NCBI RefSeq assembly: GCF_007970185.1
Contig: NZ_CP042431.1
Span: 4,712,001-4,776,000, forward strand
Direction of reading: 5' to 3'
DNA from: Pseudobacter ginsenosidimutans
Lineage (GTDB): Bacteria; Bacteroidota; Bacteroidia; Chitinophagales; Chitinophagaceae
DNA: 64,000 bases
Position 1 is the first letter of the stretch; the number at the start of each line of letters is the position of its first letter. Below, piece by piece: positions 38,271-60,574 of the stretch. The notes under the pieces were generated by a model. The model saw only the letters and a list, made by a program, of their open reading frames with translations, had not been told where the DNA came from and did no database searches. Position numbers and translations under genes: made by a program.

Positions 38271-38344
38271 ATTTGCGCCGCCTTTTGTGCTGTTATGGAA
38301 TTAACATAGTTTGCAGCCTGCAGCCGTCAACTAACTGTACTCCT

Positions 38345-43400: not shown

Positions 43401-43951
43401 ACGGGAAAGTGTACAGAGGCAGCAATCAATTCCCACAGGAGGCTATTGATGACCGTTATATTGAAGTGGAGCAGGAAGTGAAATACCAGGGTGGCTTTGG
43501 CATCAACCTCAGATGGAAAAGCCTTATGTTGTCATCTTTCTTCGATTTCGAGAACAAACTGGGGCTGGATCCTTATCTGCTGATTGTTCCCGGAGGGAGA
43601 TTCAATTCCGTGGTACCGGACGCCATCAAAAACAACCATTGGAAAAAACCGGGAGATCAGGCTATCTATCCCAGGTATACCACCATGCCTTCCTTGCTGG
43701 GCCCCATCGAAAATTCCGATGCAGCCTGGGTGAACCGGTCGTTTGTACGAATGAATACGCTTTCCGTATCCTGGGAGTTGCCTGCCACCTGGCTCAACCG
43801 TATTAAAATGAAAGGAGCTTCACTGGCGGTTCAAACAGGAAACCTTTTCATCTTCTCGCCCTATAAGGATATCAACCCCGATATGCAAAAACTGAGTTCG
43901 GCCATCCCGCGTTCCAGAACTATTACCACCAGGTTGTCATTCAATTTCTAA
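40430..43951 (+). CDS. SusC/RagA TonB-linked outer-membrane transporter with STN signalling domain
   Basis: From ATG 40430 the product is 1173 aa. A second possible start, ATG 40553, follows AGGAG and opens MRLLAFYLLVASFAVSAKP. The longer form resembles the extended N-termini seen in Chitinophaga SusC proteins. Domains are STN (DQLFNVIEKQTGFMVVYNMDLL), a carboxypeptidase-like domain (GEPVAGASVTIKG), the plug (YVVDGIPWTTLNI, ATAIYGSRGANGVILITTKK) and a large barrel ending in STITTRLSFNF-type aromatic residues (ends SFNF). The STN domain marks it as a sensor as well as a transporter, reporting to the upstream FecR. SusD follows after 9 nt. Substrate not identifiable; neighbours are not sugar enzymes. 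Confidence 0.96.
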   Translation: MQKTAFTFHCCVLLQSIPGWGMKGKENSGRLLLLPVQTRRIMRLLAFYLLVASFAVSAKPVAQTITVSGKNFALDQLFNVIEKQTGFMVVYNMDLLENTKPVSVSVRQMPLKDFLKTVFKDQPLGFLVFDNTKTITLSRKQITAPVLKDILNLSPSMDISVRLIAAGTGEPVAGASVTIKGRRAGTISSSAGQFSLSNLSDTASILITSIGFNPVEVSIKRLAALETGTSYLLKTGSVRKVTASEYVITLSLADNILDEAVTTAYSRTSRKLAIGTIGTIKAEDIEKQPVFNALEVLAGKVPGVSVTPISGNRAAPVQVIIRGKNSINETTSTDPLYVVDGIPWTTLNISPYFGRFPTSLGAVQGGFTKTYGENPLLSINPRDIERIDVLKDANATAIYGSRGANGVILITTKKAQKGPASFNMSVSNGLSYVQKYNTLLNTPEYLAVRREALMNDGITPDIYNAPDVMKWDSTKYTDWQRWAAGTGSTTDINARLSGGSLQTNYFLSATYSTIKEPMNLDGKNQRGSFNSSLNHTSANRRFNMTIGNNMAITRVKAYAINDLQSLPPNAPDAYDEKGEFNFEPYRGQYMSEFPFGGLKKPSDSKTFSLASHINVSYELLKGLTLSARAGYNYSQNENGDYTPAAASDPLYPGNYSMAFFGKTLNKSWTVEPQLRYNTYLGRGNLSVQLITNMQSVTTRSETVTASLFPSDEMMKSYMYASLKDFQENYGEYKNVFAVATIRYDWDNKYSINLVGRRDGSSRFGPGKQFGSFGSAGFAWVASEEGWLKKLMPSWMNLVKFSASYGKTGSDNIGDYEYLSRWSNLLVLGGANGMLAYNNVNAFHVIRPLNQDFRWETNLKSDITASLGFLQNKLMLDMTWYSELSKDQLTNVDMPFMTGFGAALENRDAQVRNSGIEFNLSANLINSKDWGLSLSFNIGRNWNKLVDFPSLENSVYKGRLRVGSSTSTMYLLRYTGIDPMTGYYTFEDRNKDGKVYRGSNQFPQEAIDDRYIEVEQEVKYQGGFGINLRWKSLMLSSFFDFENKLGLDPYLLIVPGGRFNSVVPDAIKNNHWKKPGDQAIYPRYTTMPSLLGPIENSDAAWVNRSFVRMNTLSVSWELPATWLNRIKMKGASLAVQTGNLFIFSPYKDINPDMQKLSSAIPRSRTITTRLSFNF

Positions 43952-43960
43952 ATAAGAAGT

Positions 43961-45409
43961 ATGAGCATGAAACTTTTTTCAAAATCGATATATACCGTGG
44001 CTCTCTGCCTTTTTTTAACTGCGTGCAAAAAGCTGTTGGATATTGCACCTCCGATCAATTCCGTTACCACAGAGGAACTATTTGCCGATAACAAACAGGC
44101 GGAGTGGGCAATGGCGGGTATCTATTCCAAGATGATCAATGGTACTGATTATGTATTCATCGAAGAGGGAGCAAATGTCAATTTTGCGGCTGGTCTTTCC
44201 ACTATTCAGGGAGCCCTGTCAGCTGACGAAATGGTACCGGGAGTAAGCCGTGCCGGTACGCCGGAAACGAATGCGATGCAGAATAAACTCACCATTGCTT
44301 CAGGAGCCAGAACAGACGCTATCTGGATCAGTGCATATAGGATCATCTTCGATGCCAATGCACTGATCGAAGGCATCGAAGCATCAACCGCAATAGCGCT
44401 TACCGATAGCGTCAGAAAACAGTTGACAGGAGAAGCCCTTGCCATCCGTGCATTCACTTATTTCTACCTGGTAAACTTTTTTGGAGATGTGCCGTTGCTG
44501 ATCAATTCCGATTACCGGAAGAATGCAGTCCAGCCCCGGTCGGCTGTGGCAAAAGTGTATGAGCAGATCAAAACCGATCTTGTCAGAGCAAAGTCATTGC
44601 TGAACGATGATTACAAGCTGCACAATACGGAAAGAGTGCGGATCACTAAATGGTTCGCTGAAGCACTGCTGAGCAGGGTATACCTCTACACGGGAGAGTA
44701 CCAGCCAGCGATCATTAGTGCCACAGCTGTGATCGATCAGGCTTCCCTGTTCTCAATAGAACCTGATTTGAATAATGTGTTCACACCCGCAAGCAAAGAG
44801 TGTATCTTTCAATTGAAACCATCACAGGAACAAAAGGCTTTTGTACTAAACAACTCACATCCGGAGGCCTATTTGCTGCATCTCGTAACAGGCCTGATGC
44901 CAAACTATATCATCAGCCAGCCATTGCTCGATGCCTTCGAAATAAATGATCAGCGAAAAATAAAATGGACGGAAACGCTGAACCAGCAGCTCATTGCTGC
45001 CAAATACAAGCGTTCCGGACAACCGGAATACTATACCGTGATGCGCCTGGCAGAAATGTACCTTATCAGGGCAGAAGCCAGACTGCTGCTATCTCCTGCA
45101 AACAAGGCAGACGCCATCGACGACCTGAATGTATTGAGAAAAAGAGCCGATGTGGATGAGCTGGATGATCTGCTTACAATACCACAGGTCACCCAAGCCA
45201 TTGCCCATGAACGTCGGGTGGAATTATTTGCAGAATGGAGCCATCGCTGGTTCGACCTAAAAAGAACAGGTAAAGCCCACGATGTATTATCTGCCATTCC
45301 CTACAAGCAACCCTGGTGGGGCGACTATCAGTTTCTCTATCCCATTCCGGCCGGAGAAATAAGACTGAATGCGAACCTGTCGCAGAATCCTGAATACAAT
45401 TCAAGGTAA
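43961..45409 (+). CDS. RagB/SusD-family substrate-binding lipoprotein
   Basis: The 482-aa product has a lipoprotein signal (YTVALCLFLTACKKLLDI). It has the SusD helices and TPR-like core: LTGEALAIRAFTYFYLVNFFGDVPLLI, YEQIKTDLVRAKSLL, ARLLLSPANKADAIDDLNVLRKRA and ERRVELFAEWSHRWFDLKRTG. C-terminal residues YPIPAGEIRLNANLSQNPEY are typical. It acts as the lid of the SusC barrel on the outside of the cell. M1 and M3 are alternative starts 6 nt apart. Confidence 0.95.
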   Translation: MSMKLFSKSIYTVALCLFLTACKKLLDIAPPINSVTTEELFADNKQAEWAMAGIYSKMINGTDYVFIEEGANVNFAAGLSTIQGALSADEMVPGVSRAGTPETNAMQNKLTIASGARTDAIWISAYRIIFDANALIEGIEASTAIALTDSVRKQLTGEALAIRAFTYFYLVNFFGDVPLLINSDYRKNAVQPRSAVAKVYEQIKTDLVRAKSLLNDDYKLHNTERVRITKWFAEALLSRVYLYTGEYQPAIISATAVIDQASLFSIEPDLNNVFTPASKECIFQLKPSQEQKAFVLNNSHPEAYLLHLVTGLMPNYIISQPLLDAFEINDQRKIKWTETLNQQLIAAKYKRSGQPEYYTVMRLAEMYLIRAEARLLLSPANKADAIDDLNVLRKRADVDELDDLLTIPQVTQAIAHERRVELFAEWSHRWFDLKRTGKAHDVLSAIPYKQPWWGDYQFLYPIPAGEIRLNANLSQNPEYNSR

Positions 45410-45453
45410 CCGGCTGTACTGCAGTTATCTGATTATTCATGCTAAAAAAGTAA

Positions 45454-46263
45454 ATGATGCTTTCTACATATTTCAATGCTGACCGGATCAGCAGCTTCCG
45501 GAGCCGGATACTTATTGCCCTTCCTGTAATGCTGTCAATAATGGTGGGCAGTTGTAAAAAAACAACCCTCAATACTGGCAATCCTGCCACCCTGCAGGTT
45601 TTCAACGCCCTTGATGAGGAGGTGGCATTGCGTGCGAATCTATCCGGCAATCATCCCATCCAGTACAGCACTGCGCAATTGATGTACAACAAATTTTATT
45701 TGCCGAACAATAATGTCTTCTATATTCAATCTTTTCCACAGCCATTCAGTGTCTATTCCGAAACTGATACACTGCCTAAAGACAATCCGGTACTGGATAT
45801 CGATCTCGATCTGGAAAAAGGGAAAGTATACTCTCTCTTTTTGCATGGAAACAAAACGAATGCAGCCTACACGCTGATCAGCGACCAGCTTCCCACACCT
45901 GTTGCAGGAGACAGCGTCACGTTTATACGCTTCGCCAACTTCAGCACCGGCCAGGTGATGAGCGCCAACCTGAAGGGAGAACCCTATGGATCGCTCATTC
46001 AAAACCTGGCATTTAAATCTGTTTCAGCATTTATTCCGGTGAAAGCCGACATGTCTGTTACAGACCATGAAATTGAGATCAGAGACCAGACAAGCGGCAC
46101 CCTCATTGCCACATACATCACTTATGGACTGAACCGGAATAGTCCATACTGGTCTTCACCCAGTATGTGGTTGTACAAAATCAATACACTGGTGCTTACC
46201 GGAAAACCGGGAGGGAGTGGAAGCGACATGCAAATGATCTACCAGATGCCGCATTGGTGGTAA
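45454..46263 (+). CDS. Outer-membrane lipoprotein (DUF4397-like), part of the SusCD operon
   Basis: The 269-aa product has a lipobox (LPVMLSIMVGSC). The mature part is beta-rich with two similar segments. The first is LQVFNALDEEVALRANLSG, and the second is VTFIRFANFSTGQVMSANLKGEPYGSLIQ. This resembles the DUF4397 pattern of 'RVVNASP..VDVYVDG' repeats. It lies 44 nt after susD and 38 nt before the ABC ATPase gene with no promoter or terminator on either side. It is therefore probably an accessory surface protein linking the uptake and ABC parts of the operon. The family assignment is tentative. Confidence 0.7.
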   Translation: MMLSTYFNADRISSFRSRILIALPVMLSIMVGSCKKTTLNTGNPATLQVFNALDEEVALRANLSGNHPIQYSTAQLMYNKFYLPNNNVFYIQSFPQPFSVYSETDTLPKDNPVLDIDLDLEKGKVYSLFLHGNKTNAAYTLISDQLPTPVAGDSVTFIRFANFSTGQVMSANLKGEPYGSLIQNLAFKSVSAFIPVKADMSVTDHEIEIRDQTSGTLIATYITYGLNRNSPYWSSPSMWLYKINTLVLTGKPGGSGSDMQMIYQMPHWW

Positions 46264-46301
46264 CAAGCAGCAACATCGGATAAAAATTATATCAACACTA
46301 T

Positions 46302-47219
46302 ATGAGTACGGTATTAAAAGTGGAGAATCTCTCCCACAGATATTCCAGTGCCTGGGCTATCCGTGATATCAGTTTCGAAATCAGCAAACCGGGTGTGATA
46401 GGATTGCTCGGCTCCAATGGAGCCGGCAAATCCACCACCATGAATATCATTTGTGGTGTATTGAATCAAACGGAAGGGGAAGTGTATATCAACGGGATCA
46501 ATAAAAGGGAGCAACCCAGACTGGCGAAAAAGCAGATCGGTTTCCTGCCACAGACAGCTCCCTTGTACAGCGACTTTACAGTTCAGGAATACCTTACCTA
46601 TACTGCTGATCTCAGATTCATCGAATCATCAATGGTAAAAAAATCAGTGAGTGAAGCAATGGAAAGAACAGGCATCAGTCATTTCAGTTCGAGACTGATC
46701 AAAAACCTGTCGGGAGGGTATAAGCAGCGCGTGGGCATTGCACAGGCCATCATTCATAAGCCTCGCATGGTGGTACTGGATGAACCCACCAATGGGCTTG
46801 ATCCGAACCAGATCATCGAAGCGCGGAAACTGATCAAAGAAATTGCGCAGGAACACACGGTGTTGCTGAGCTCTCATGTGCTGTCTGAGATCAACCTGCT
46901 TTGCAGGGATATCATCATGATCGAAGGAGGCAGGATAGTGTTTTCGGATTCGATGGAATCTTTCAATAACTATATACAGCCTGCTTCGGTGCTGGCAAAG
47001 ATGAACCGGCCACCTGCGGAAACTGAATTGCTGAAGATTGCCGGTGTTACTAAAGTGCAGTTCCTCTCAGAGCAGCATTGCAGGATCTGGTTCAGTGGCA
47101 ATACGGCTATTACCCAAAACATTATTACTGCCAGTGTGCAGCATCACTGGGAACTACAGGAAATCAATCTGGAGAGATCCATACTCGATGATGTGTTCAA
47201 ACAATTATCCCAATCCTAA
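46302..47219 (+). CDS. ABC transporter ATPase (GldA/CcmA-like)
   Basis: The 305-aa protein has Walker A GSNGAGKSTT (residues 37-46), a Q-loop in GFLPQTAPLYSDFTVQEYL, the signature LSGGYKQRVGIAQAI, Walker B VVLDEPTNGLDP and an H-loop in LLSSHVLSEI. The C-terminal extension of about 85 residues is like the GldA/NatA group that drives ABC-2 permeases. It is the only ABC ATPase in the operon, yet two permease genes are present. I infer that an ATPase dimer powers a heterodimer of the two GldF-GldG fusions. GldA proper belongs to the Flavobacterium gliding set, but that set is not shown here. Confidence 0.92.
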   Translation: MSTVLKVENLSHRYSSAWAIRDISFEISKPGVIGLLGSNGAGKSTTMNIICGVLNQTEGEVYINGINKREQPRLAKKQIGFLPQTAPLYSDFTVQEYLTYTADLRFIESSMVKKSVSEAMERTGISHFSSRLIKNLSGGYKQRVGIAQAIIHKPRMVVLDEPTNGLDPNQIIEARKLIKEIAQEHTVLLSSHVLSEINLLCRDIIMIEGGRIVFSDSMESFNNYIQPASVLAKMNRPPAETELLKIAGVTKVQFLSEQHCRIWFSGNTAITQNIITASVQHHWELQEINLERSILDDVFKQLSQS

Positions 47220-47234
47220 TGCTTTTTGTAGTGT

Positions 47235-49547
47235 ATGAAAATCATATTTAAAATAGCGAGGGCAGAGCTCAGGTATTTGTTCTTTTCACCCATTGCATGG
47301 TTTGTGATCATCATTTTCTATGCAACAGGATTGGGCATTTATTTTTACGCACTGGAGCAAACGAGCAATTACCAGGAAGTGTTGAAAGACCTGCAACCTG
47401 ATTGGGCTGGTTTTAGCTCTGGCATCGGCAAATTATTGCTGGATGGTGTGATCGGTAAGCTATCAAACTATATGTACCTGTTCATCCCATTACTCACCAT
47501 GGGAGTGATCAACCGGGAAGTGAGCAACGGAACCATTAGTTTGCTGTATTCGTCCCCGGTGCGTACCAGGGAAATTGTATTGGGCAAATTGCTGGGGCTG
47601 ATGCTATTCAATCTGATGCTGATATTCGTGTTGGTACTGGTGCTGCTGGCGGTTTGTATACATGTTCAATTGGCTGAATACTACTGGTACCTGTCGATTT
47701 TGCTGGGCATGTTCCTGCTCATTAATACCTTTACTGCAATAGGATTATTTATTTCCTGCCTCACCAATTATCAGATCGTGGCGGCTGTGATCACCTTCAC
47801 GGTGTTCTTCATACTGTCTTATATTTCTTCGTTCTGGCAACAATACGACCTTATCAGGGATATTACCTTTTATCTCTCTTTGTCGGGCAAAGCCAGCGCC
47901 ATGATTGACGGGCAGATCAGCAGCCGCGATATTATCTATTTTATTTCGATCATCGTTCTGTTCACTGGCTTCGCCATCATCAGGCTGAAAAGTCTGACTG
48001 AATCCAGGCCATGGACAGTAGCTGCATCAAGGTACACTGTGCTTACCCTGCTGGTGATTGTGGTAGGATACTGTAGTTCAAGACCCGGTTATATTGCTTA
48101 TGCCGATGTAACTAAAAATAAACTCAATACCATTCATCCGGCAACACAGGAAGTGCTGCAGCAACTCGATGGCGCTCCGCTGACTGTAACCCTCTTCACC
48201 AATCTGCTGGATGATAATGCAGCGATGGGGTTACCCCAGGCAAGAAACAGTTATCTCTGGGGATTGTGGGAACCTTTTACCAGGTTTTATCCCAATATTC
48301 AATTTAGGTACGAATACTATTACGATATCAGGGATGGAGACAGTGCGTATTACAAAAAATACCCGGGCAAGAACCTGGATGATATCATGGTGATCGAAGC
48401 CGGAATACTGGGCATCCGTCCTTCTTTGTTTAAAAAAGGGGAAGAGATGCGAAAGACACAGGATCTGTCAGCCGAGGGTATGAAACTGGTGATGCAACTT
48501 GAATACAAGGGGAAGAAAGAATTCTTACGAACCTATGGTTCCAGCTGGCCCGCACAGGAAAATATCTCAGCCACTATCAGCCGGCTGACACGTAAAAAGG
48601 AGCCTCGTATCAGTTTTCTCACCGGACACTATGAAAGGAATCCCTTCAGCTATGCACCCAGAAATTTCGGAGCTGGCACCACTTACAAAAGGAACAGTCG
48701 CTCACTGCTGAACAATGGCGTGGATACCGATACCATTTCACTGTCAAATGCCGACATACCTACAGGGATAGACGCACTTATCATTGCCGATCCCAGGTCT
48801 GCTTATTCAAAGGATGAGCAGCAGAAGGTCATCAACTGGCTGAACAGGGGCGGGAATGCGATCATTTTCACAGAGCCAGGTAAACAGGAAATACTTCAAC
48901 CCATATTGAACAGCATCGGTGTACAGGCAGACAACGGAATCATTGTTCGTCCTAACGACCATGAAGTACCCCATTTGTTTGTCAATGGACTCACCAATGC
49001 CGGCAATCATCTTGCTAAGGAACCTGCGATGGAACTGTTTCAAAAATATGGATTGGGAGGAATAGTGGTGGCCTATGAAGGTGCGCTGAATCTCAGTGTC
49101 ATCGACAGCAGTGCTTTCAAAGCCGAGCCGGTCATTTTTCATACAGGTGATGATAAAACATGGATTGAAACTGGGGAACTGGTGGTTGATTCTGCCGCGC
49201 CCGTTTTTTCTCCTGCAGCCGGTGATGTGCAAAAAGAGGCTTATATCATTGCTTTGAAACTAACCCGGAAAATCGGTAACAAAGAGCAGCGCATCATTGT
49301 GGCTGGGGATGCTGATTTCATGACCATTGACCGTTTCAATATTTCAAGATTCATTGAACTCGGATTGTACAGTTGGGTGCTGAATAACGAGTACCCGATC
49401 TATGCAAACTATCCACTGCCGCAGGACAGGTACCTGGAAGTAAAGCAGGCAACAGTAAAAAAAATGAACTGGCTGATCGTATACGGAGGCACAGGCATAC
49501 TGTTGCTCACAGGCATCATCATACTGGTGCGCAGGAAAAGAAAATAA
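47235..49547 (+). CDS. Fused GldF-GldG ABC-2 permease / auxiliary protein, copy 1
   Basis: The 770-aa product joins two functions. Residues 1-245 form an ABC-2 permease with six hydrophobic helices (FIPLLTMGVINREVSNGTISLLYSSPVRTREIVLGK is the GldF-type core loop). Residues about 270-735 are a GldG / ABC_transp_aux domain: ATQEVLQQLDGAPLTVTLFTN, EPRISFLTGHYERNPF, and RIIVAGDADFM near the end. A final TM (LIVYGGTGILLLTGIIILV) and a basic tail follow. The auxiliary domain faces the periplasm. It lies 15 nt after the ATPase gene and is clearly paralogous to 52238-54547, with the same layout and many identical motifs. Confidence 0.9.
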   Translation: MKIIFKIARAELRYLFFSPIAWFVIIIFYATGLGIYFYALEQTSNYQEVLKDLQPDWAGFSSGIGKLLLDGVIGKLSNYMYLFIPLLTMGVINREVSNGTISLLYSSPVRTREIVLGKLLGLMLFNLMLIFVLVLVLLAVCIHVQLAEYYWYLSILLGMFLLINTFTAIGLFISCLTNYQIVAAVITFTVFFILSYISSFWQQYDLIRDITFYLSLSGKASAMIDGQISSRDIIYFISIIVLFTGFAIIRLKSLTESRPWTVAASRYTVLTLLVIVVGYCSSRPGYIAYADVTKNKLNTIHPATQEVLQQLDGAPLTVTLFTNLLDDNAAMGLPQARNSYLWGLWEPFTRFYPNIQFRYEYYYDIRDGDSAYYKKYPGKNLDDIMVIEAGILGIRPSLFKKGEEMRKTQDLSAEGMKLVMQLEYKGKKEFLRTYGSSWPAQENISATISRLTRKKEPRISFLTGHYERNPFSYAPRNFGAGTTYKRNSRSLLNNGVDTDTISLSNADIPTGIDALIIADPRSAYSKDEQQKVINWLNRGGNAIIFTEPGKQEILQPILNSIGVQADNGIIVRPNDHEVPHLFVNGLTNAGNHLAKEPAMELFQKYGLGGIVVAYEGALNLSVIDSSAFKAEPVIFHTGDDKTWIETGELVVDSAAPVFSPAAGDVQKEAYIIALKLTRKIGNKEQRIIVAGDADFMTIDRFNISRFIELGLYSWVLNNEYPIYANYPLPQDRYLEVKQATVKKMNWLIVYGGTGILLLTGIIILVRRKRK

Positions 49548-49574
49548 TAATTGTGGAACTAAAGATAATGGAAG

Positions 49575-50276
49575 ATGTATCTCCAGACCGATGAACAAAC
49601 GATCGATGACCTCAGGCTCTTTGCCAAAAGAGAAGAAAGCGGCATCTACGAAATCTATAACAATACATCCACCCGCGGAGGAGAATTGCTGCTGGAAAAG
49701 ATGTTCAGGAATCCTTTGTCTGATTTGCAGGCGATCAGGCAAAGAGCCGGTATCATTTCATCTTTTGCGATACAGAACGCGGTATTTCCGGTAAACCCGG
49801 CCCTGCTCGACAGTGTTGAGAAATACATAACACAGGAAGAGAAAGCGGGTAACCATCAGCAACCTGTAATGGGTGAAAAGGAGGTTGCCAACGGTGTTAC
49901 TGCTTTCATCGAACTGTTCCATCTATTGCATGCGTTTTTGGAAAAGGGGCCGGTAAGGAAAGTGGCGGCGCTGGATCAACAGCGGCAGGAAATGATGGAG
50001 ATACTGCAACATCCTTCCCTGGAGCCGGTTGCCAAAGAAAGACCAAAGAACAGATTGTCATTTGGTGCAGTGACTGCTTTCGATATCCTGATCCGGGTGA
50101 AAGAGAGAGGGAAAGTAATTGCTATGTTGAATTTTATTTATCTCATCGATGTATACATTTCGGTGGCTGCGATTTCCAGGAAGAGAAATTTTATTTTCCC
50201 AGTTGCACATGAGAAAGGGAGCAGCATTTTAAATCTGAGCGGTGTTTATCATCCCGAACTGAAGGAACAGTGGTGA
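49575..50276 (+). CDS. MutS-type ATPase, copy 1, N-terminal part (upstream of a frameshift)
   Basis: The 233 residues correspond to the lever/clamp-like core of the paralogue at 50903-52225. It opens with the same scheme (TDEQTIDDLRLFAKREESGIYEIYNNTSTRGGELLLEKMF), and TRGGE is also in the paralogue. It then runs through YLIDVYISVAAISRKRNFIFPVA. It lacks the N-terminal mismatch-recognition domain of MutS. Translation stops at TGA 50274-50276 just where the paralogue continues into the ATPase domain. The ATPase half lies in another frame from 50270, so one base appears missing near 50265-50270. Confidence 0.75.
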   Translation: MYLQTDEQTIDDLRLFAKREESGIYEIYNNTSTRGGELLLEKMFRNPLSDLQAIRQRAGIISSFAIQNAVFPVNPALLDSVEKYITQEEKAGNHQQPVMGEKEVANGVTAFIELFHLLHAFLEKGPVRKVAALDQQRQEMMEILQHPSLEPVAKERPKNRLSFGAVTAFDILIRVKERGKVIAMLNFIYLIDVYISVAAISRKRNFIFPVAHEKGSSILNLSGVYHPELKEQW

Positions 50277-50866
50277 ATGATCTCCGGATGCATGAAGGCA
50301 AGTCGGTAATATTTCTCACCGGGGCAAATATGGCGGGCAAATCTACCTTTCTCAGGGCTTTCAGTATTGCTGTATACATAGCCCATATGGGTTTTCCGGT
50401 TGCTGCCGGGGCCATGGAGTTTTCCATACTCGATGGTTTCTATACCACCATCAATCTGCCGGATAATTTAGGCATTGGCGCCAGCCATTTTTATGCGGAA
50501 GTGTTACGGGTAAAAAAAGTAGCAACTGAATTAAGTACGGGCAAATCTTTGTTCGTGGTATTTGATGAATTGTTCAGAGGTACGAATGTAAAAGATGCGC
50601 ATGAAGGTACGGTGGCAGTGACACAGGCATTTGCAGACAGGAAGAACAGTTTGTTCCTGATCTCGTCTCATATTGTTGAAGCAGGAGAGGAGTTGAGCCG
50701 GAAAGCAAATATAGGTTTTCACTACCTGCCAACACGCATGAATGGCGTGCAGCCTGAATATACCTACAAGCTGGAATCTGGCATCACCGACGACCGGCAT
50801 GGTATGATCATTATCCGCAATGAAGGTATCCTTGAAACACTCGCCAACGGAAAAAAGAAAGGATGA
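50270..50866 (+). CDS. MutS-type ATPase, copy 1, C-terminal ATPase part (after the frameshift)
   Basis: The 198 residues are a complete MutS domain V. Walker A is FLTGANMAGKSTFLRA, the N2-type loop is FYTTINLPDNLGIGASHFYAEVLRV, Walker B is SLFVVFDELFRGTNVKDAHEGT, and the His switch is FLISSHIVEAG. It could start at GTG 50270, which overlaps the TGA of the N-terminal part, so a separate subunit by reinitiation is conceivable. However, the continuous match to the paralogue on both sides (HPELKE/VVNDLRMHEGK in place of HPCIQNAVGNDIEM) favours a one-base deletion in a single 430-aa gene. Confidence 0.78.
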   Translation: MVNDLRMHEGKSVIFLTGANMAGKSTFLRAFSIAVYIAHMGFPVAAGAMEFSILDGFYTTINLPDNLGIGASHFYAEVLRVKKVATELSTGKSLFVVFDELFRGTNVKDAHEGTVAVTQAFADRKNSLFLISSHIVEAGEELSRKANIGFHYLPTRMNGVQPEYTYKLESGITDDRHGMIIIRNEGILETLANGKKKG

Positions 50867-50902
50867 TTAGTCTCATTCAGTCAAAATCTTCAATTACTAT
50901 TT

Positions 50903-52225
50903 ATGCGTTTTCATATAGACAAGCAGTCGCTGGATGAATTGAATCTCCTGGGAAGGTTCAGGCAGGGCTCTGTGTATTTTCTTTTCAACCAGGTGAAGAC
51001 CCGCGGGGGAGAACAGTTGCTCGACAAGTATTTCAAATCAGTGCTGACCGATGAGCAGGCCATTAATCAACGTACTGCCATCTTCCGTTTTTTCGAACAG
51101 GCAGCCATTCGCTTCCCCTTCGATGCAGCGCAGCTGGTGCAGATGCAGGAGTACATCGATGCAGGTGGCAGCAGTAGTCGCTGGTATGCACTCGCCAATG
51201 TGATGATCAAAAGAACATTGTCATCCCTTACGCGCGACGAACGATACAAATCGATGATTCAGGGGCTGCAGGCAACTATTGTAACGCTGAAAAAATGCCT
51301 CACGACCGTGGAGTTGTTATGTCAGCTGGAAGGACCGTACAAACAACGTGTGACGGAGATCCGTTCCATTTTACAGCAGGAAGAGCTGGCCGCTCTCATC
51401 GACACAGATATTTATGCGGGTATCAAACTGAGCACGGTAGCCGGGTATGACTACCTGTTAAAAACCAAACTCAACAACGAATTACGGCAATTACTTGATT
51501 TCATTGCTGAGCTGGATGTGTATATCACCGTGGCCCAAATTGCAGCAACGAATCATTTCAATTATGCAGTGGCCCTTCCGAAACAAGCCAATGTTTTGCG
51601 GGCTGCCAATCTGAAGCATCCCTGCATTCAAAACGCTGTAGGGAATGATATAGAAATGCCGCCGCAAAGCAATGTGGTTTTTCTTACAGGGGCAAACATG
51701 GCAGGGAAATCTACCTGGATGAAATCGATCGGTATCAGTATGTACCTGGCTCATATCGGATTTCCTGTAGCAGCGGATTCGATGGAATTCTCCTTGCGGG
51801 AAGGAATATTTTCCAGTATTAATGTGGCCGACAATATCGGGTTGGGCTACAGCCATTTTTATGCGGAAGTAGTCCGGGTAAAAACGGCAGCTGATGCCAC
51901 CTGCACTGGCAGTCACTTGTTACTCATGTTCGATGAACTGTTCAAAGGCACCAATGTGAAAGATGCTTATGATGGTACACTAGCCGTAACCCGCGCATTT
52001 GCTGAATATGAGAATTGTCTCTTCATCGTTTCCACCCATATCATCGAAGTGGGGGAAGCCCTCCATGACAAAGAAAATATTCAGTTCCGGTATATGCCTA
52101 CCGTATTGGAAGGGAATATACCCCGCTATACGTACCAGTTGAAGCAGGGCATCACTGAAGACAGGCAGGGGATGATGATCATTAAGAACGAAGGAATCCT
52201 CGAACTAATTTCTACTCAATCCTAA
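50903..52225 (+). CDS. MutS-type ATPase, copy 2 (domains III-V only)
   Basis: This intact 440-aa protein has a MutS core/lever part (TRGGEQLLDKYFKSVLTDEQAINQR at about 30-55, with helical segments to about 230). It also has a full ATPase: Walker A GANMAGKST from residue 263, loop FSSINVADNIGLGYSHFYAE, Walker B LLLMFDELFKGTNVKDAYDG and switch FIVSTHIIEVGEAL. There is no mismatch-recognition domain, endonuclease (Smr) domain or membrane helix. This kind of short MutS homologue is not the mismatch-repair MutS. Lying in an ABC-transporter operon beside a paralogue, it probably forms a heterodimer with copy 1. Function unknown. Confidence 0.9.
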   Translation: MRFHIDKQSLDELNLLGRFRQGSVYFLFNQVKTRGGEQLLDKYFKSVLTDEQAINQRTAIFRFFEQAAIRFPFDAAQLVQMQEYIDAGGSSSRWYALANVMIKRTLSSLTRDERYKSMIQGLQATIVTLKKCLTTVELLCQLEGPYKQRVTEIRSILQQEELAALIDTDIYAGIKLSTVAGYDYLLKTKLNNELRQLLDFIAELDVYITVAQIAATNHFNYAVALPKQANVLRAANLKHPCIQNAVGNDIEMPPQSNVVFLTGANMAGKSTWMKSIGISMYLAHIGFPVAADSMEFSLREGIFSSINVADNIGLGYSHFYAEVVRVKTAADATCTGSHLLLMFDELFKGTNVKDAYDGTLAVTRAFAEYENCLFIVSTHIIEVGEALHDKENIQFRYMPTVLEGNIPRYTYQLKQGITEDRQGMMIIKNEGILELISTQS

Positions 52226-52237
52226 CGAAACAAAACC

Positions 52238-54547
52238 ATGACGATAATTTTGAAAATAGCCCGGGCTGAACTGAGGAGTCTTTTTTATTCGCCCGTTGCA
52301 TGGATAATTATAGTAGTATTCTTTACTGTGTCGGCCGCCTTTTTTGCCGGCCAGCTGATGGATGTCTCCAGGGTGCAGCAGTTGAAGCTGGAGAACGAGC
52401 AAGGGTGGACGGGATTTCAAGGCGCACTTTCGCTTAACCTATTTACCAATACCATCAGGCAGGTACTCCAATATTTCTTTATGTTCATTCCCTTGCTCAC
52501 AATGGGGAGCATCAGCAGGGAGCTGAGTTCGGGTACCATGAAATTGCTCAGTGCCTCACCGGTAAGGATCAGAGAAATCATACTGGGTAAATTTACTGGT
52601 TTGGTGCTTTTCGGTCTGGTATTGTTGTCAGCCATAGCCATGCTTTTATTTACCGGCTACTTCAGTATACAAGATGCTGAGTTTGCCTGGTACCTTTCCG
52701 TATTACTGGGTTTGTTTCTGTTGTCGGCTACCTATATGGCCATCGGACTTTTTCTTTCCAGCATTACCAGTTATCAGATAGTAGCGGCATTGGCCACTTT
52801 TATGACTTTCGTGTTGCTGAATATGGTCGGAAATATTGGTCAGCAGTATGATCTCATCAGGGATATTACCTGGTTTCTTTCCATCACCGGCAGAACAGAA
52901 CAAATGCTGGAGGGATTGATCACCACAAGAGATGTTCTTTATTTCGTATTGATCATTGCGCTGTTCCTGGGTTTATCGATGCTGGCCATGAAACGCAGGC
53001 AGGAATCGAAAAGCTGGTTAAGTTTTCTGCATCTCAACCTGGGATTGATTGTTATAGTGTTAACCCTGGGATATTTTTCATCCAGACCAGCATACACAGG
53101 GTATTGGGATGTGACGAGAAATGAGCTGAACACCATCGATACTGCCACCCGGAATATTCTGAAGGAACTGGATGGATCACCTGTTACCGTTACGCTCTAT
53201 ACCAATCTGCTGGGAGAAGGAACGCAGGCAGGACTACCGGTATCCCGCAATGCATATATGTCTGGTATGTGGGACAGGTATATTCGCTTCTATCCGAATA
53301 TCGATTTCAAATACCAGTACTATTACGATATTAAGAAAGAGGATAGTTCCTTTCTCCAATCCTATCCCGGAAAGAACATTCATCAGATCGCAGCACAAAT
53401 GGCAAGACTGTACAAGGTAGATACGCAGGATTTTAAAAAGCCGGGAGAGATCGATCAGTTGGCAGACTTTTCTGAGGAACCTTATCGATTGATCATGGAG
53501 TTGGAGTATAAGGGGGAGAAATCATTTTTAAGAATTAACGGTGGTAGCTGGCCAGCCGAGCCGAACCTGTCTGCTTCGGTGAGGCGACTGCTGAAAGACA
53601 ATATGCCGAAAGTGCTGTTCACGACAGGGCATTATGAACGAAGCCCCTGGCGAAACGGAGAGCGTGAGTACGGTAAACATACTAACCTGAAGATGGTGGA
53701 GTCGGCAATGATAAATATCGGGATGGAGGCAGATACCATCTCCCTGCGCAGTAATGAAATTCCTGAACAGACAGCTATATTAGCCATCCCCGATCCGAAA
53801 TCAGTTTTGGAGGCAGATGAACAAAAAAAGATCCTTGCGTATCTGGAAAAGGGTGGGAATGCCATTTTCTATGCAGAGCCGGGCAAGCAGCAATTGCTGA
53901 ACCCGCTGCTACAATATCTGGGTGTTCATATCGATAAAGGGATATTGGTAAAGCCAGGACTGCATCGATCGCCTGCCTTGTTTGATGCATACCTGAATAA
54001 AACCGGCAATTATATGGCCCGGGAAGCTTATATGCAGGTCTTTCAGCAAACGGGACAAAATCCTGCCGGCGCATTCTTTACCGGCGTAAATAATATCAGC
54101 TACAGGGATACGAATGGTTTCAAAGTGGAACCGATCATAACCCTGCCAGGAAATGATAATATATGGATAGAAAACGGATTGTTTGTAGCTGATTCGGCTG
54201 CGCCTGTATTTGCATTTGAAGAAGGAGATAACAGGAAAGAGGAATATGTGTTGGGGGTGAGGCTTAGCCGGAAACTGAATCATAAAGAGCAGCGAATTGT
54301 AGTGGTGGCAGATGCTGATTTTATGTCGGCGGCAAACAATAGCGGCCATTCGATCGGGCTTGGGTTGTACAGCTGGCTTGTGTATAACCGATACCCGGTT
54401 TATACAAGTGTAAAACAGGCCAGGGATACCAGGCTTACGATTGGCGCTGGTACAGGGAAAGCCATCTGGTACCTGTATGTGTATATTTTACCAGGGTTGT
54501 TGCTGTTGGCGGGTATTCTTATCATCGTACGGAGAAAACGCAAATAG
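52238..54547 (+). CDS. Fused GldF-GldG ABC-2 permease / auxiliary protein, copy 2
   Basis: The 769-aa paralogue of the 47235 gene has the same fusion. Six permease helices lie in residues 1-245 (FIPLLTMGSISRELSSGTMKLLSASPVRIREIILGK). A periplasmic GldG-like domain follows (ATRNILKELDGSPVTVTLYTN, VLFTTGHYERSPW, RIVVVADADFMSA), then a last TM (YVYILPGLLLLAGILIIV) and a basic tail RRKRK. It starts 12 nt after the second MutS gene and is the last gene of the operon, ending before the ssrA promoter. The N-terminus of each copy (KIARAELRxLFxSPxAW) is conserved, which suggests a duplication with later divergence. Confidence 0.9.
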   Translation: MTIILKIARAELRSLFYSPVAWIIIVVFFTVSAAFFAGQLMDVSRVQQLKLENEQGWTGFQGALSLNLFTNTIRQVLQYFFMFIPLLTMGSISRELSSGTMKLLSASPVRIREIILGKFTGLVLFGLVLLSAIAMLLFTGYFSIQDAEFAWYLSVLLGLFLLSATYMAIGLFLSSITSYQIVAALATFMTFVLLNMVGNIGQQYDLIRDITWFLSITGRTEQMLEGLITTRDVLYFVLIIALFLGLSMLAMKRRQESKSWLSFLHLNLGLIVIVLTLGYFSSRPAYTGYWDVTRNELNTIDTATRNILKELDGSPVTVTLYTNLLGEGTQAGLPVSRNAYMSGMWDRYIRFYPNIDFKYQYYYDIKKEDSSFLQSYPGKNIHQIAAQMARLYKVDTQDFKKPGEIDQLADFSEEPYRLIMELEYKGEKSFLRINGGSWPAEPNLSASVRRLLKDNMPKVLFTTGHYERSPWRNGEREYGKHTNLKMVESAMINIGMEADTISLRSNEIPEQTAILAIPDPKSVLEADEQKKILAYLEKGGNAIFYAEPGKQQLLNPLLQYLGVHIDKGILVKPGLHRSPALFDAYLNKTGNYMAREAYMQVFQQTGQNPAGAFFTGVNNISYRDTNGFKVEPIITLPGNDNIWIENGLFVADSAAPVFAFEEGDNRKEEYVLGVRLSRKLNHKEQRIVVVADADFMSAANNSGHSIGLGLYSWLVYNRYPVYTSVKQARDTRLTIGAGTGKAIWYLYVYILPGLLLLAGILIIVRRKRK

Positions 54548-54564
54548 TTTTTGAAACCTTGCAA

Positions 54565-54596
54565 TTTGGCAGTGGCCTGAAATTGCCTTAAATTTG
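54565..54596 (+). promoter_or_regulatory. Promoter of ssrA
   Basis: TTTG (54565-54568), 20 nt, then TAAATTTG (54589-54596) is a perfect Bacteroidota promoter, 14 nt before the tmRNA 5' end. Confidence 0.85.
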
Positions 54597-54610
54597 CAGG
54601 CTCACTTTAT

Positions 54611-55006
54611 GGGGCTGTACTGGTTTCGACAGCGTAGATCTTTGAAAGTGTAAGCATGTCGTGCGTTGGATAATTAGCACGTAAATCTGAATATTCAAAC
54701 TTTTATATGGCAATACTCAGTATGCCATGGCCGCTTAATCAGTGATTAAGTAGTCATTAGGGCCGCGTCCGCAAGGGGTTCTTCGGAACCGAGCAGGTTG
54801 ACCTGTTACCATGCTCCGCCGCCGACTAATAAACCAAAACAGGTTGCTGCTGCAGGGTGTTGTGACTGCAGCTTAAGATGATCGCAACTAAGGAGCAGAT
54901 TGGTTTGCCGGTTCCCTGCCTGTTCCCGACAATTAATAATCGGATAAGCATGTAGAAAGCTTTTGGAGGATATGTTTGGACGCGGGTTCGAGTCCCGCCA
55001 GCTCCA
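54611..55006 (+). ncRNA. ssrA: Transfer-messenger RNA (tmRNA, ssrA)
   Basis: The 5' end GGGGCTGTACTGGTTTCGAC and the 3' end GGGTTCGAGTCCCGCCAGCTCCA form the tRNA-like half. The acceptor is GGGGCTG with CAGCTCC, the T-arm is CGGGTTCGAGTCCCG, and the discriminator A is at 55006. CCA is not encoded. Between them lie the tag frame and pseudoknot-rich segments (CCGCAAGGGG, GGTTGACC). It rescues stalled ribosomes with SmpB and marks the peptides for degradation. It has its own promoter and a 22-bp terminator stem. Confidence 0.97.
54709..54738 (+). other. tmRNA proteolysis-tag reading frame
   Basis: GGC AAT ACT CAG TAT GCC ATG GCC GCT TAA encodes GNTQYAMAA, ending in the AMAA form of the usual ALAA degron. 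The resume codon is taken as GGC, by analogy with Bacteroidota tags that begin with Gly. Confidence 0.8.
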
Positions 55007-55088: not shown

Positions 55089-55214
55089 TATTTGAAGTGT
55101 TCCCACCATTATGTATCTATCAAATCCGGACTTACAATATTTAAGTACTAACCCTTACTTTTGACTTTATTATTTTATCATTAGCCCTTGTTCCTTTCCA
55201 GGGATGATTTATCG

Positions 55215-55796
55215 ATGGATACCTACACGCTACATACTGACGAACAGTTGGCCGTTCTTCTTGGAGAAGGGAACCGTGGCGCCTTTACCGAGATTTACAA
55301 TCGCTACAAGGGTATTCTCTTCGTACATGCCTTCAGAAGGTTGGAAGACCGGGCACAAGCGGAAGATGTGCTGCATGACCTCTTTGCTGCCCTCTGGGCA
55401 GGGAGGACCGAACTGCATATCCATTCGGGAAACCTTGGGGGATATCTCTATGCAGCCATCCGCAACAGGATACTGAAGAGCTATGCCAGAGATGCAAATG
55501 CCGGCCTTTATATTTCTTCCATCGCAAGTGCCATTGACAGCGGGACTGCAACTACAGACCATCGGGTGCGCGAAAACCAGCTTCGCCAGCACATAGAAAA
55601 AGAGATCGCACTCCTGCCAGAAAAAATGAGGGAAGTGTTCATCCTCAGCAGGACAAACCACCTTAGCCATAAAGAGATCGCCGGACAGCTTGGCCTCAGC
55701 GAAAAGACGGTGAAGAACCATATCAATCATGCCCTGAAGCTCCTGCGCAAAAAACTCGGCGTACTGCGCTTTATCTACTTGTTGATGTTCTATTAA
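55215..55796 (+). CDS. ECF RNA polymerase sigma-70 factor (second SusC/FecR cassette)
   Basis: ATG 55215 gives 193 aa (MDTYTLHTDEQLAVLLGEGNRG). Region 2 is AFTEIYNRYKGILFVHAFRRLEDRAQAEDVLHDLFAALWAGR. Region 4 is LLPEKMREVFILSRTNHLSHKEIAGQLGLSEKTVKNHINHALKLLRKKLG. A hydrophobic C-terminus (LRFIYLLMFY) is normal for this subfamily. It is first in the second sigma-FecR-SusC-SusD cassette and should drive the genes from 57.2 kb on. The upstream TTG at 55188 is a poorer start. Confidence 0.93.
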   Translation: MDTYTLHTDEQLAVLLGEGNRGAFTEIYNRYKGILFVHAFRRLEDRAQAEDVLHDLFAALWAGRTELHIHSGNLGGYLYAAIRNRILKSYARDANAGLYISSIASAIDSGTATTDHRVRENQLRQHIEKEIALLPEKMREVFILSRTNHLSHKEIAGQLGLSEKTVKNHINHALKLLRKKLGVLRFIYLLMFY

Positions 55797-55869
55797 ACTT
55801 TTTTCATTTTCTTTTAGGCCCTGAACCTGCCTTGGCGGTCTTACCTTTTAAACGCTATTGCCAAAGGCT

Positions 55870-56985
55870 ATGGAAAAGGAAAATATAAAACCATTACTCG
55901 AAAGATACCTCCAGGGGAACGCCAGCCCATCGGAGGTTGAACTGCTGGAGACATGGTACCTGGACTTCCAGGGAAAGGACGATAATGAAATCGATCATGC
56001 CATGATCGAAGCATCCACCAACAGGATCTGGCAAAGGCTCCAACAGTCACAGACCAAAACTGCCCGACTCTGGCCGCGCATTGCCGTAGCCGCCTCCCTT
56101 CTGTTAGCCATTCTTACCGCAGTCTATTTCATTTTCCGTTCTGATCATGCAGCGATTCCGGTAGTACAGAAATATGATCTTCCTCCCGGAAAGGATGGAG
56201 CAACACTTACGCTGGCTGATGGTAGAAAAATTCCTATTGGCGAAGTTCGTTCCGGAAATATTGCAGAAGAAAGTGGAGTACGCATTTTCAAGGATAGCGT
56301 TGGACAACTGGTCTATGAAGCAACAAAGCAGGCCGGAGATGGCCAGGCCTTCAACATACTTTCCACCGCTTCCGGACAACAGACCCGGCTGCGTCTTCCC
56401 GATGGTTCCCTTGTCTTTCTCAATGCAGGTTCATCCCTGAGGTATCCGACACATTTTAATGGAAATACCAAACGGGAAGTAAGTCTTTCCGGCGAAGGTT
56501 ATTTTCAGGTGGCAAGTGATCGCAGTCGTCCATTCATCGTCAAATCCCAGGGCCAGCAGGTGGAAGTTCTAGGTACAGCGTTCAATATACTGGCATACGA
56601 TGATCGAAAGATCAGGACCACCCTGCTGGAAGGAACCGTGGCCATAACTACAGGTGAAAAGAAAACAGTGCTCAGGCCGGGACAGCAGGCATTGGTTCAG
56701 GACGGCATTATCTCCGTAAAAGAAGTAGAGGCTGAATATGAGATCGCGTGGAAGGAAGGGTTTTTCCTCTTCAACGGTGACTCGCTCGAAGACATCATGG
56801 ACAGGATCGGCAAATGGTATGATGTGAAGGTCGTGTTTGCGGACCCTGCATTGAAAGGAGAAAAATTCACCGGTACCGTCAGCAGGTTCGAGCATATCTC
56901 CAAAGCACTTGCCATACTCGAAAAAACTAAGGTTGCCTCTTTTTACCTAAGTGATCGAACGGTCACGGTAACGAGAAGGCCTTGA
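55870..56985 (+). CDS. FecR-family anti-sigma factor (second cassette)
   Basis: ATG 55870 gives 371 aa (MEKENIKPLLERYLQGNASP). The cytosolic N-terminus binds the sigma factor, and one TM lies at about 62-82 (WPRIAVAASLLLAILTAVYFIF). The periplasmic FecR domain has KYDLPPGKDGATLTLADGRKI, TRLRLPDGSLVFLNAGSSLRYP, GEGYFQVASDRSRPFIV and VLGTAFNILAY. The DUF4974 domain has FNGDSLEDIMDRIGKWYDVKVVF. It lies 73 nt after the sigma gene. A T-rich hairpin separates it from susC. Confidence 0.95.
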   Translation: MEKENIKPLLERYLQGNASPSEVELLETWYLDFQGKDDNEIDHAMIEASTNRIWQRLQQSQTKTARLWPRIAVAASLLLAILTAVYFIFRSDHAAIPVVQKYDLPPGKDGATLTLADGRKIPIGEVRSGNIAEESGVRIFKDSVGQLVYEATKQAGDGQAFNILSTASGQQTRLRLPDGSLVFLNAGSSLRYPTHFNGNTKREVSLSGEGYFQVASDRSRPFIVKSQGQQVEVLGTAFNILAYDDRKIRTTLLEGTVAITTGEKKTVLRPGQQALVQDGIISVKEVEAEYEIAWKEGFFLFNGDSLEDIMDRIGKWYDVKVVFADPALKGEKFTGTVSRFEHISKALAILEKTKVASFYLSDRTVTVTRRP

Positions 56986-57078
56986 GGATACAAAACAATT
57001 CATCAATTTTTATGACCAGCAAACTAACTGCAATATGAAAGAAAACTTCAAGAGCGGATAAACTCCATCAAACGGATA

Positions 57079-57110
57079 AAAAAAGGCTCCGTTGCGAGCG
57101 AAGCCTTTTG
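57079..57110 (+). terminator. Hairpin with T tract between fecR and susC (second cassette)
   Basis: AAAAGGCT pairs with AGCCTTTT over a 13-nt loop, with A and T runs flanking. It is placed about 95 nt after fecR and before susC, so basal fecR transcription should stop here and susC needs its own sigma-dependent start. Confidence 0.7.
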
Positions 57111-57205
57111 ACTGTTTCCGTAAAAATCGAACAAACAATTATTACAGGAACTGATGGGTGCCAGCCGGTAGAAGGATGGGCACTTCATCATTAACAGCAA
57201 TTCAA

Positions 57206-60200: not shown

Positions 60201-60574
60201 ATTCGGTGTACGGCAATATTGGTTATATGGAGAATAAACCTTCAGTTTTTCTTGACTATTGGACACCTGAAAATCCTGATGCCCGGTTTCAAAAGCCCAG
60301 CGCAGGTTATAATGCAGCAGCCGCAACTTCTGGTTCCCTTTTTACTTCCAGCGATGCTACAGTTTCGGATGTATTTACAGTCCGAGTAAAAAATATCTCG
60401 CTAAGCTATCAGTTGCCACCGATTGGACAGCATAAATCAGTTGTCAGATTTTTTGCCAATGGACAAAATCTATTTCTCTTTTCAAATTACAAAGGGAGTA
60501 ATCCGGAGTTTATGATAGCGGGATTTAGTAGTCCACTGAGAGTTATGAGCCTGGGAATGTCATTGACCTTTTAA
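57206..60574 (+). CDS. SusC/RagA TonB-linked outer-membrane transporter with STN domain (second cassette)
   Basis: ATG 57206 (MYKIYTRSQPVPGGYGS) matches extended Chitinophaga-type N-termini and gives 1122 aa. A shorter start is ATG 57320 (MRAQLIFSIMLISLLQVSA), which would begin at the signal peptide. STN domain: YTRLFFEIRKQTGYDVLLRSKDF. Carboxypeptidase-like domain: GKVLDSNGEPLVGATVKIKG. Plug: YVVDGVPLPQVND, then ATAIYGSKGANGVILITTKKG. The barrel ends in MSLGMSLTF. SusD begins 10 nt later. With the peptidase downstream, a peptide or protein substrate is plausible, but this is only inferred. Confidence 0.95.
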   Translation: MYKIYTRSQPVPGGYGSWLLIVCHALFDQLGSNKRKWIMRAQLIFSIMLISLLQVSAAGFGQQFTLKKKDISYTRLFFEIRKQTGYDVLLRSKDFDTEKRIDADFNDADLKTVMKTVLYGTPLVFEIADKTIVISRRQVSIMDKIVETNQAVDISGKVLDSNGEPLVGATVKIKGSDRFTITDSNGGYMLRQVPDDAVIVISFVGYRSMEIGVKPGKVVVKLERISNEMQEIKVSAGYYSVTRREMTGSIARVAAKDIENQPVNNVLSAVQGRMAGVNIIQNSGIPGGGFDVQIRGRNSLRSYVTTGYDGNKPLYVVDGVPLPQVNDFITGMSGTLHPYSDTNPLHSINPDDIESFEVLKDADATAIYGSKGANGVILITTKKGKKKKTGGYIKASYGLGDMTNLPKMFSLEQYLEMRKLAFANDGVAIPANAYDINGTWDPNKSTDWQKYFVGNHAKYSDIQFGLSGGTGNTQFSVSGAHNEETTIFPGSYRYRRNNIGMNLQHGSADGRLKIGFSGYAALQDNVLPPTDFNQIYSSLAPNAPDLYAADGSINWQNNNNPMGPATQTYSVETKSLNSNLTLGYEIGRGFSVNMNAGYSNYNSYEQKIFPKTTYNPASNIGSSNSTVRKGEKLNQNWIIEPQLNYTGKWDAHQFSALLGTSFQEQQSDNIVILGRNFPSDEMLGNISAAATITIPSAYESKYRYQAIYARLNYGYQQRYFVNLTGRRDASSRFGINKRYANFGAVGAAWLFSEEGILKNCSWLSFGKLRASYGITGNDQIGDYQFYDTYQSTGGSYNGYTGLVPQRLFNKDFGWEGTRKFEVAVDLAFLNQRLILDLGYYHNISSNQLVGIPMPATVGFGSMLANLDATVRNRGLEFSLQSVNIRKGKFKWTSNLNFTLPENKLLKFPNLANSTYANKFEVGKSTTLGKLYQYTGIDQTTGLYTFMDINHDGRINATDRIAAREIREYWYGGIQNSIQYKNWSFDILLQMVNQSQYNIYSVYGNIGYMENKPSVFLDYWTPENPDARFQKPSAGYNAAAATSGSLFTSSDATVSDVFTVRVKNISLSYQLPPIGQHKSVVRFFANGQNLFLFSNYKGSNPEFMIAGFSSPLRVMSLGMSLTF

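Follow-up and report, generated by a model that had tools for sequence, protein, structure and literature searches.

This work describes an operon of Pseudobacter ginsenosidimutans (Bacteroidota; Chitinophagaceae) in which two short MutS-family ATPase genes, here called A and B, lie behind genes for an ATP-binding cassette (ABC) ATPase and a GldF-GldG permease fusion (GldFG). The window, i.e., the whole stretch of DNA that was analyzed, comprises 64,000 nucleotides (nt) of contig NZ_CP042431.1 (assembly GCF_007970185.1; positions 4,712,001 to 4,776,000 of the forward strand); coordinates below are those of the window. Comparison with copies of the operon in the same genome, the genus, and other Bacteroidota supports a tie between short MutS genes and an ABC-GldFG transporter across genera. 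The reading that we favor, with a probability of roughly 0.6, is that A and B form a cytosolic heterodimer, an ATPase that partners a GldFG-type transporter serving an outer-membrane SusC-SusD (SusCD) system. MutS-family ATPases are known as DNA clamps, the exceptions being MutS2, which acts on ribosomes, and, by its name, KamC. The operon suggests that an ATPase family of DNA repair was recruited into a transport machine.

Co-occurrence of short MutS genes with ABC-GldFG operons

The genome of the window, a single contig of 7.80 Mb, holds 117 MutS_V matches in 61 clusters, namely, 56 pairs and five singles; 60 of the 61 clusters were retrieved with their flanks. Directly upstream of 55 of the 56 pairs are an ABC ATPase gene and one or two GldFG fusions, the whole lying downstream of SusC, and SusD was recognized in 54 of these 55 operons. 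This 56-fold multiplication within one genome was absent from the first-pass annotation of the window, which had taken two permeases and two MutS genes as a sign of two heterodimers. As a rule, that idea was rejected: a single GldFG call was obtained in 28/55 operons and two or more in 27/55, some of the latter being one split gene. The 56th pair (locus L012) precedes its extracytoplasmic function (ECF) sigma factor, FecR, and SusC genes, after which come SusD, a further two genes, ABC, and GldFG; this locus was read as two retrieved stretches that leave a gap of 368 bases. A gene for a 2104-amino-acid (aa) protein with a type IX secretion tail adjoins the rearranged pair.

Five other genomes of the genus gave 12, 55, 26, 39, and 9 MutS_V matches. 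Locus L056 of the window's genome (position 6619659) carries one MutS_V gene on its own, with a frame of 600 aa, and proteins of similar length occur in several congeners.

Beyond the genus, named genomes were scanned with MutS B, and the best 80 of 96 relatives were analyzed. These come from, among others, Chitinophaga, Pseudoflavitalea, Pseudobacter, Niabella, Niastella, Flavitalea, Arachidicoccus, Pedobacter, Mucilaginibacter, and Sphingobacterium. At least 3.5 kb of sequence was available ahead of the first MutS gene in 71 loci, and all 71 carry the pair behind ABC and GldFG, with SusC or SusD additionally upstream in 66. Among 98 genomes of the family (97 genera), the MutS pair (match of at least 321 bits) is present in 11, the GldFG fusion (E of 1e-40 or better) in the same 11, and neither in 87. 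The best MutS match in the remaining 87 is much weaker (E of 1e-68 or worse), and three loci retrieved from them (L178 to L180) hold a single MutS gene without ABC-GldFG. Nine other genera supplied 14 retrieved pair loci, and in 13 of them GldFG precedes the pair. The last, in genome G071, is reversed and repeats the order of L012; its A and B proteins are sisters of those of L012 (support of 0.998 and 0.999). A chance neighborhood in this one genome, which the first-pass annotation had itself raised while proposing a survey of MutS and GldFG co-occurrence in Bacteroidota, was put to the test and is rejected by the counts of 55/56 own-genome pairs, 71/71 named loci, and the same 11/98 family genomes.

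In samples of 395 genomes, a strong MutS B match was found in three genomes at the phylum level and three at the class level, both counts including the window's genome. One of the matching genomes (G789) carries a single MutS-like gene in another setting: at about 8.3 to 11.9 kb of the reversed locus L189, a 452-aa MutS-like gene is flanked by a semialdehyde dehydrogenase and a class-III aminotransferase, arranged as for arginine synthesis. Two lone short MutS genes (about 440 aa; L019 and L180) each directly adjoin an amidohydrolase gene.

Domain content and lineages of the MutS-family pair

MutS B (50903 to 52225, plus strand) encodes a 440-aa protein with core and ATPase domain, matching MutS_V with 92.7 bits (cut-off, 30.2) and MutS_III weakly. 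MutS A (49575 to 50866, plus strand) consists in the window of two overlapping open reading frames (ORFs) in different frames, with MutS_III in the first (49575 to 50276) and MutS_V in the second (50270 to 50866). No Pfam match to MutS I, II, or IV was obtained at E 0.1 in the A pieces or in B. Walker A, the acidic pair of Walker B, the signature Ser-His, and the H-loop His show no variation across 81 A and 81 B sequences and, together with MutS_V scores above cut-off, place the proteins among the MutS superfamily ATPases. Models of narrower scope fall well short of their cut-offs: MutS equivalogs gave 117 bits against 480, MutS2 gave 72.3 against 400, and KamC gave 99.6 against 300.

In the predicted structure of B (predicted local distance difference test [pLDDT] score of 86.4), no strand of three or more residues precedes residue 223, after which a mixed ATPase domain follows. 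There is thus no room in the model for the MutS clamp, a beta domain. That the pair might act on nucleic acid, e.g., on DNA handled by the transporter, draws on this likeness to repair proteins, since the top 50 solved folds listed for B are all MutS or Msh proteins and residues 190 to 424 of B align by profile with residues 538 to 773 of E. coli MutS; the lack of domains I, II, and IV and of space for a clamp nevertheless makes such a role very improbable. The first-pass annotation had also considered that the genes could be normal mismatch repair paralogs. This was not borne out: besides the missing domains, one of the five singles encodes a separate MutS with a 910-aa frame, and the evidence supports the view that the short pair are not ordinary repair paralogs.

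The KamC score, among the four best NCBIfam matches, brings up another function, that of a free chaperone or reactivase, KamC-like by name, for an enzyme working on the imported substrate. Roles of that kind exist in the MutS family, but the operons share no common enzyme partner, and neighboring genes change while ABC and GldFG stay, so that we hold this improbable.

Phylogenetic analysis of 64 rows with IQ-TREE under a mixture model recovered B as one clade (99.5) and A plus B as one clade (100); A as one clade was not rejected (p of 0.42). We trust this result more than a first FastTree of 176 rows, rooted on the 600-aa protein, in which A was nested inside B. The 64-row tree fits two old sister lineages, a history compatible with a heterodimer. 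Single frames that join the two proteins likewise fit what a fixed A:B partnership would allow. Two own-genome operons encode A and B in a single open frame (874 and 900 aa), and four of the five congeners have frames of 898 to 901 aa with a MutS_V match; among the matches listed, three of these four congeners show two MutS_V matches in such a frame. No fusion of MutS to ABC or GldFG was seen among the frames inspected. A 515-aa ABC frame in L161, considered as a fusion candidate, overlaps the following gene, which uses a different frame, and appears to be an artifact; the longer GldFG proteins of L024 and L172 match permease and GldG-type domains only. A lysine-rich tail of A was considered as a membrane anchor and dropped, as it is present in 22/51 A proteins and 1/51 B proteins.

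Co-divergence, selection, and operons without the pair

Co-divergence was measured in 51 own-genome operons, leaving out L012 and four with split MutS genes. Median pairwise identity is 0.64 for ABC, 0.59 for A, 0.61 for B, and 0.40 for GldFG, compared with 0.24 for SusC and 0.25 for SusD. Pairwise distances correlate most closely between A and B (0.92), followed by ABC with GldFG (0.85), ABC with A (0.84), ABC with B (0.83), and GldFG with either MutS protein (0.76); the SusC-SusD correlation is 0.71. Correlations of SusC with ABC (0.19), A (0.26), and B (0.20) are low, still exceeding nearly all of 199 shuffles, and those of SusD are intermediate (0.42, 0.47, and 0.42, respectively). ECF and FecR show hardly any correlation with the inner genes. 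This pattern indicates an inner block (ABC, GldFG, A, and B) and an outer block (SusC and SusD) with a looser tie between them.

Several points weigh against the favored reading. Copying of whole operons partly accounts for the co-divergence, the contrast with SusC being the informative point. Ratios of nonsynonymous to synonymous substitution rates (dN/dS) come from nonindependent comparisons, with most dS near saturation, and therefore give only an order of magnitude; their medians are 0.077 for A (94 of 122 comparisons usable), 0.084 for B (79 of 119), and 0.099 for ABC (106 of 172). MutS genes are broken in 5/56 own-genome pairs, namely, that of the window (49575 to 50866), L015, L037, L046, and L051, and three own-genome ABC-GldFG operons have no nearby MutS pair (L161, on the minus strand, L162, and L163). 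The phylum sample of 395 genomes includes 11 with a GldFG fusion; eight of these lack a strong MutS match, and no MutS gene was seen within the retrieved stretches of the loci of these eight. Two further genomes with a pair elsewhere, G006 (L192) and G035 (L191), also have an ABC-GldFG set without MutS in the retrieved stretch. The MutS pair is therefore not required everywhere.

It could accordingly be proposed that the MutS genes are hitchhikers, copied along with the operon and without any tie to the transporter; jointly copied neighbors do remain together, some pairs are broken, and three operons manage without one. Set against this are MutS dN/dS values as low as those of the ABC ATPase, the invariant motifs, and the finding that, of 98 family genomes, the 11 with the pair are also those with the fusion, and we give hitchhiking the least weight of the alternatives considered here. 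Low dN/dS indicates that the MutS genes are maintained by selection; purifying selection on the pair, and its co-selection with the transporter, are well supported by the sequence comparisons.

The broken frame in the window bears on an earlier claim as well, in that MutS-like 2 proved to be the intact plus-strand gene that had been annotated, whereas MutS-like 1 is not a single open frame. Broken MutS frames may reflect either decay or sequencing error. A programmed frameshift in MutS-like 1 is not favored, as only 5/56 pairs are broken and the remainder are intact. Split SusC or GldFG frames in other operons are put down to the same two causes.

All eight MutS-less phylum genomes have SusC and SusD, upstream of ABC-GldFG in seven and downstream in G470. 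ABC-GldFG with SusCD is thus the wider theme, to which the MutS pair is an addition kept in one lineage. In six MutS-less loci of five genomes, the next gene encodes 937 to 980 aa, and the one that was scanned is an M16 peptidase. When a GldFG tree with 128 tips was rooted at its midpoint, the 17 tips labeled MutS-less, which include one from the operon of L012 itself, were dispersed within a 44-tip part, and the 84-tip part had none. Such natural copies with and without MutS make the role of GldFG-type transporters testable by comparison.

The operon, its transporter, and known systems

Ten plus-strand genes run from the ECF sigma factor (38273 to 38932; Sigma70_r2 and Sigma70_r4_2, start codon uncertain) to GldFG fusion 2 (52238 to 54547). 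The sigma factor is followed by a FecR-type anti-sigma factor (38996 to 40219; FecR and FecR_C), the TonB-dependent outer-membrane transporter SusC (40430 to 43951; Plug, CarbopepD_reg_2, and a weak STN match below cut-off), SusD (43961 to 45409; SusD_RagB and SusD-like_3), and a DUF4397 protein, probably a lipoprotein, of a type also present in other operons (45454 to 46263). These domains are those of a SusCD locus with ECF/FecR control and agree with the upstream module, including a lipoprotein, that had been annotated. The GldA-like ABC ATPase (46302 to 47219; ABC_tran), GldFG fusion 1 (47235 to 49547), A, B, and fusion 2 complete the operon, and apart from the broken frame of A, coordinates and Pfam domains confirm the order and strand first proposed for these genes. 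Intergenic gaps from SusC through fusion 2 measure 9, 44, 38, 15, 27, 36, and 12 nt, the last four lying within the 12 to 36 nt given earlier. No promoter-like or terminator-like match falls in these four gaps, again as first annotated. Across 45300 to 54900, promoter-like matches number 12 (18.7 expected) and terminator-like matches number 16 (7.8 expected), one of them directly past fusion 2 at 54568. Because the gaps are short from SusC on and lack such matches among the last five genes, these genes and the upstream SusC block likely share one transcript. A second ECF-FecR-SusC module begins directly past the operon (55188 to 60574).

Both fusions match ABC2_membrane_2 and ABC_transp_aux above the Pfam cut-offs and, with the ABC ATPase, represent a GldAFG-like ABC-2 transporter in the superfamily sense. 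The best NCBIfam matches of ATPase and permease are GldA (267 bits against a cut-off of 403) and GldF (75 and 87 against 289), and the GldG model gave 28 of 390 for fusion 1 and no match for fusion 2; all are under cut-off and fall short of a gliding GldAFG assignment. In the model of fusion 1 (pLDDT of 89), helices at the N terminus are followed by a large mixed part and a C-terminal helix. Among solved folds, IFT52 and oligosaccharyltransferase (OST) subunits come closest, ahead of NosY and PmtCD, and OST-48 also came up as a Pfam match. In the 51 own-genome ABC ATPases, signature and Walker B are kept in 51/51 and a strict Walker A in 50/51; the MutS pair is therefore no substitute for a dead ABC ATPase.

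An alternative use of the same machine would be detoxification or immunity, with ABC-GldFG exporting antimicrobial peptides or compounds that enter via SusCD and the MutS pair regulating it. The next-best NCBIfam models of the ABC ATPase, DrrA and a lantibiotic-protection ATPase (both under cut-off), and the presence of PmtCD, an exporter by its Protein Data Bank title, among the closest permease folds speak for this. However, ABC models of many kinds (188 families) match this ATPase alike, and SusC/SusD, peptidases, and TlpA-like neighbors suit nutrient handling better; we consider an exporter unlikely, if less so than the other alternatives. An antiphage defense system was rejected, PADLOC matching only the ABC ATPase while MutS B, both GldFG fusions, and the DUF4397 protein match nothing.

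Accessory genes were counted as the ORFs kept by our script between SusD and ABC, with families named from scanned members. A DUF4397-type cluster accounts for 23 ORFs, a second probable lipoprotein type for 12, a PKD type for 8, and a DUF4843 type for 7. Eight operons have no kept ORF there, a DUF4397-type match being found nonetheless in five of them. An extra ECF sigma factor lies between lipoprotein and ABC in L010, L018, L045, L047, L049, L050, L061, L062, and L067, and one more occurs in L037; it is perhaps a second switch inside the operon. A zinc-metallohydrolase lipoprotein was dismissed, as TIGR04549 gave a single weak match (23 bits against a cut-off of 75) and HExxH is present in no kept SusD-ABC ORF. 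Genes scanned next to the block or within it include M16, S41, tricorn-like, and trypsin-like peptidases, along with thioredoxins of the AhpC/TSA-DUF4369 type, which in L099 and L147 separate A from B. In 26 loci, of which 23 belong to named Chitinophaga, B is followed by a protein of one family, whose scanned member is an S41 peptidase. From the peptidases and thioredoxins we infer a cargo of peptides or proteins. Other scanned neighbors are unrelated (Band 7, FG-GAP, and a type IX tail).

We propose an envelope-wide transport system present in dozens of diverged copies in this genome. ECF and FecR would turn the operon genes on. The outer part would comprise SusC and SusD together with at least one probable lipoprotein, and would bind and pass on a ligand that is probably a peptide or a fragment of a protein; in the inner part, the GldA-like ABC ATPase would drive the GldF-GldG fusion, whose large GldG-type part would act either on this ligand or on the outer components. 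MutS-family members couple ATP to large conformational switches. A and B, reduced to MutS core and ATPase domain, may pair as a cytosolic heterodimer dedicated to ABC-GldFG and, rather than clamp DNA for repair, serve it as a switch driven by nucleotide or as a second engine with ATPase activity; the pair would dock on the transporter, whose direction of transport is likewise inferred. More tentatively, and at somewhat less than even odds, A:B may be a subunit proper, on the cytosolic side, of an ABC-GldFG machine, to which it would add a second engine or a gate powered by ATP. Together with SusCD, this machine would span the entire envelope, and one genome would have expanded it to 56 operons with swapped cargo-binding front ends, as parallel channels of one engine design.

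If correct, the fold would be put to a new use, with a MutS pair as part of a membrane transporter, and SusCD biology would gain a component so far unrecognized. More than 100 genes of this genome, which we expect to be automatically annotated as mismatch repair, would then be transporter genes. A literature search, which left most subscription papers and bioRxiv preprints outside its reach, returned no recognizable description of MutS genes tied to GldFG or SusCD.

Among known systems, MutS/Msh repair proteins share core and ATPase fold with the pair, which differs in lacking domains I, II, and IV, in its 440-aa length, and in its place in transporter operons. KamC, by its NCBI name a lysine 5,6-aminomutase reactivase ATPase, is likewise a MutS-family ATPase with a non-DNA role; the pair reaches only 99.6 bits against its cut-off of 300, and no aminomutase gene was seen. 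MutS2, whose ATPase is used to split ribosomes (PMC10897456), offers a precedent for a MutS-family ATPase acting on something besides a mismatch. It differs in matching the pair weakly (72 bits; cut-off, 400) and in having no transporter link. GldG of Flavobacterium, together with GldA and GldF, likely forms an ABC transporter needed for gliding (PMC5682007). GldA and GldF are the best, if below-cut-off, NCBIfam matches here, but in the operon GldF and GldG are fused and joined by SusCD and MutS; the genome encodes elsewhere a distinct PF09822 protein of 568 aa, whose size is GldG-like. NosDFY is alike in that NosY is near the permease part among solved folds (E of 1e-3 to 1e-1), whereas the GldG part resembles IFT52 and OST48 rather than NosD. 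SusCD uptake loci with ECF/FecR, finally, have SusC, SusD, probable lipoproteins, ECF, and FecR in common with the operon, which adds to them a dedicated ABC-GldFG set and the MutS pair.

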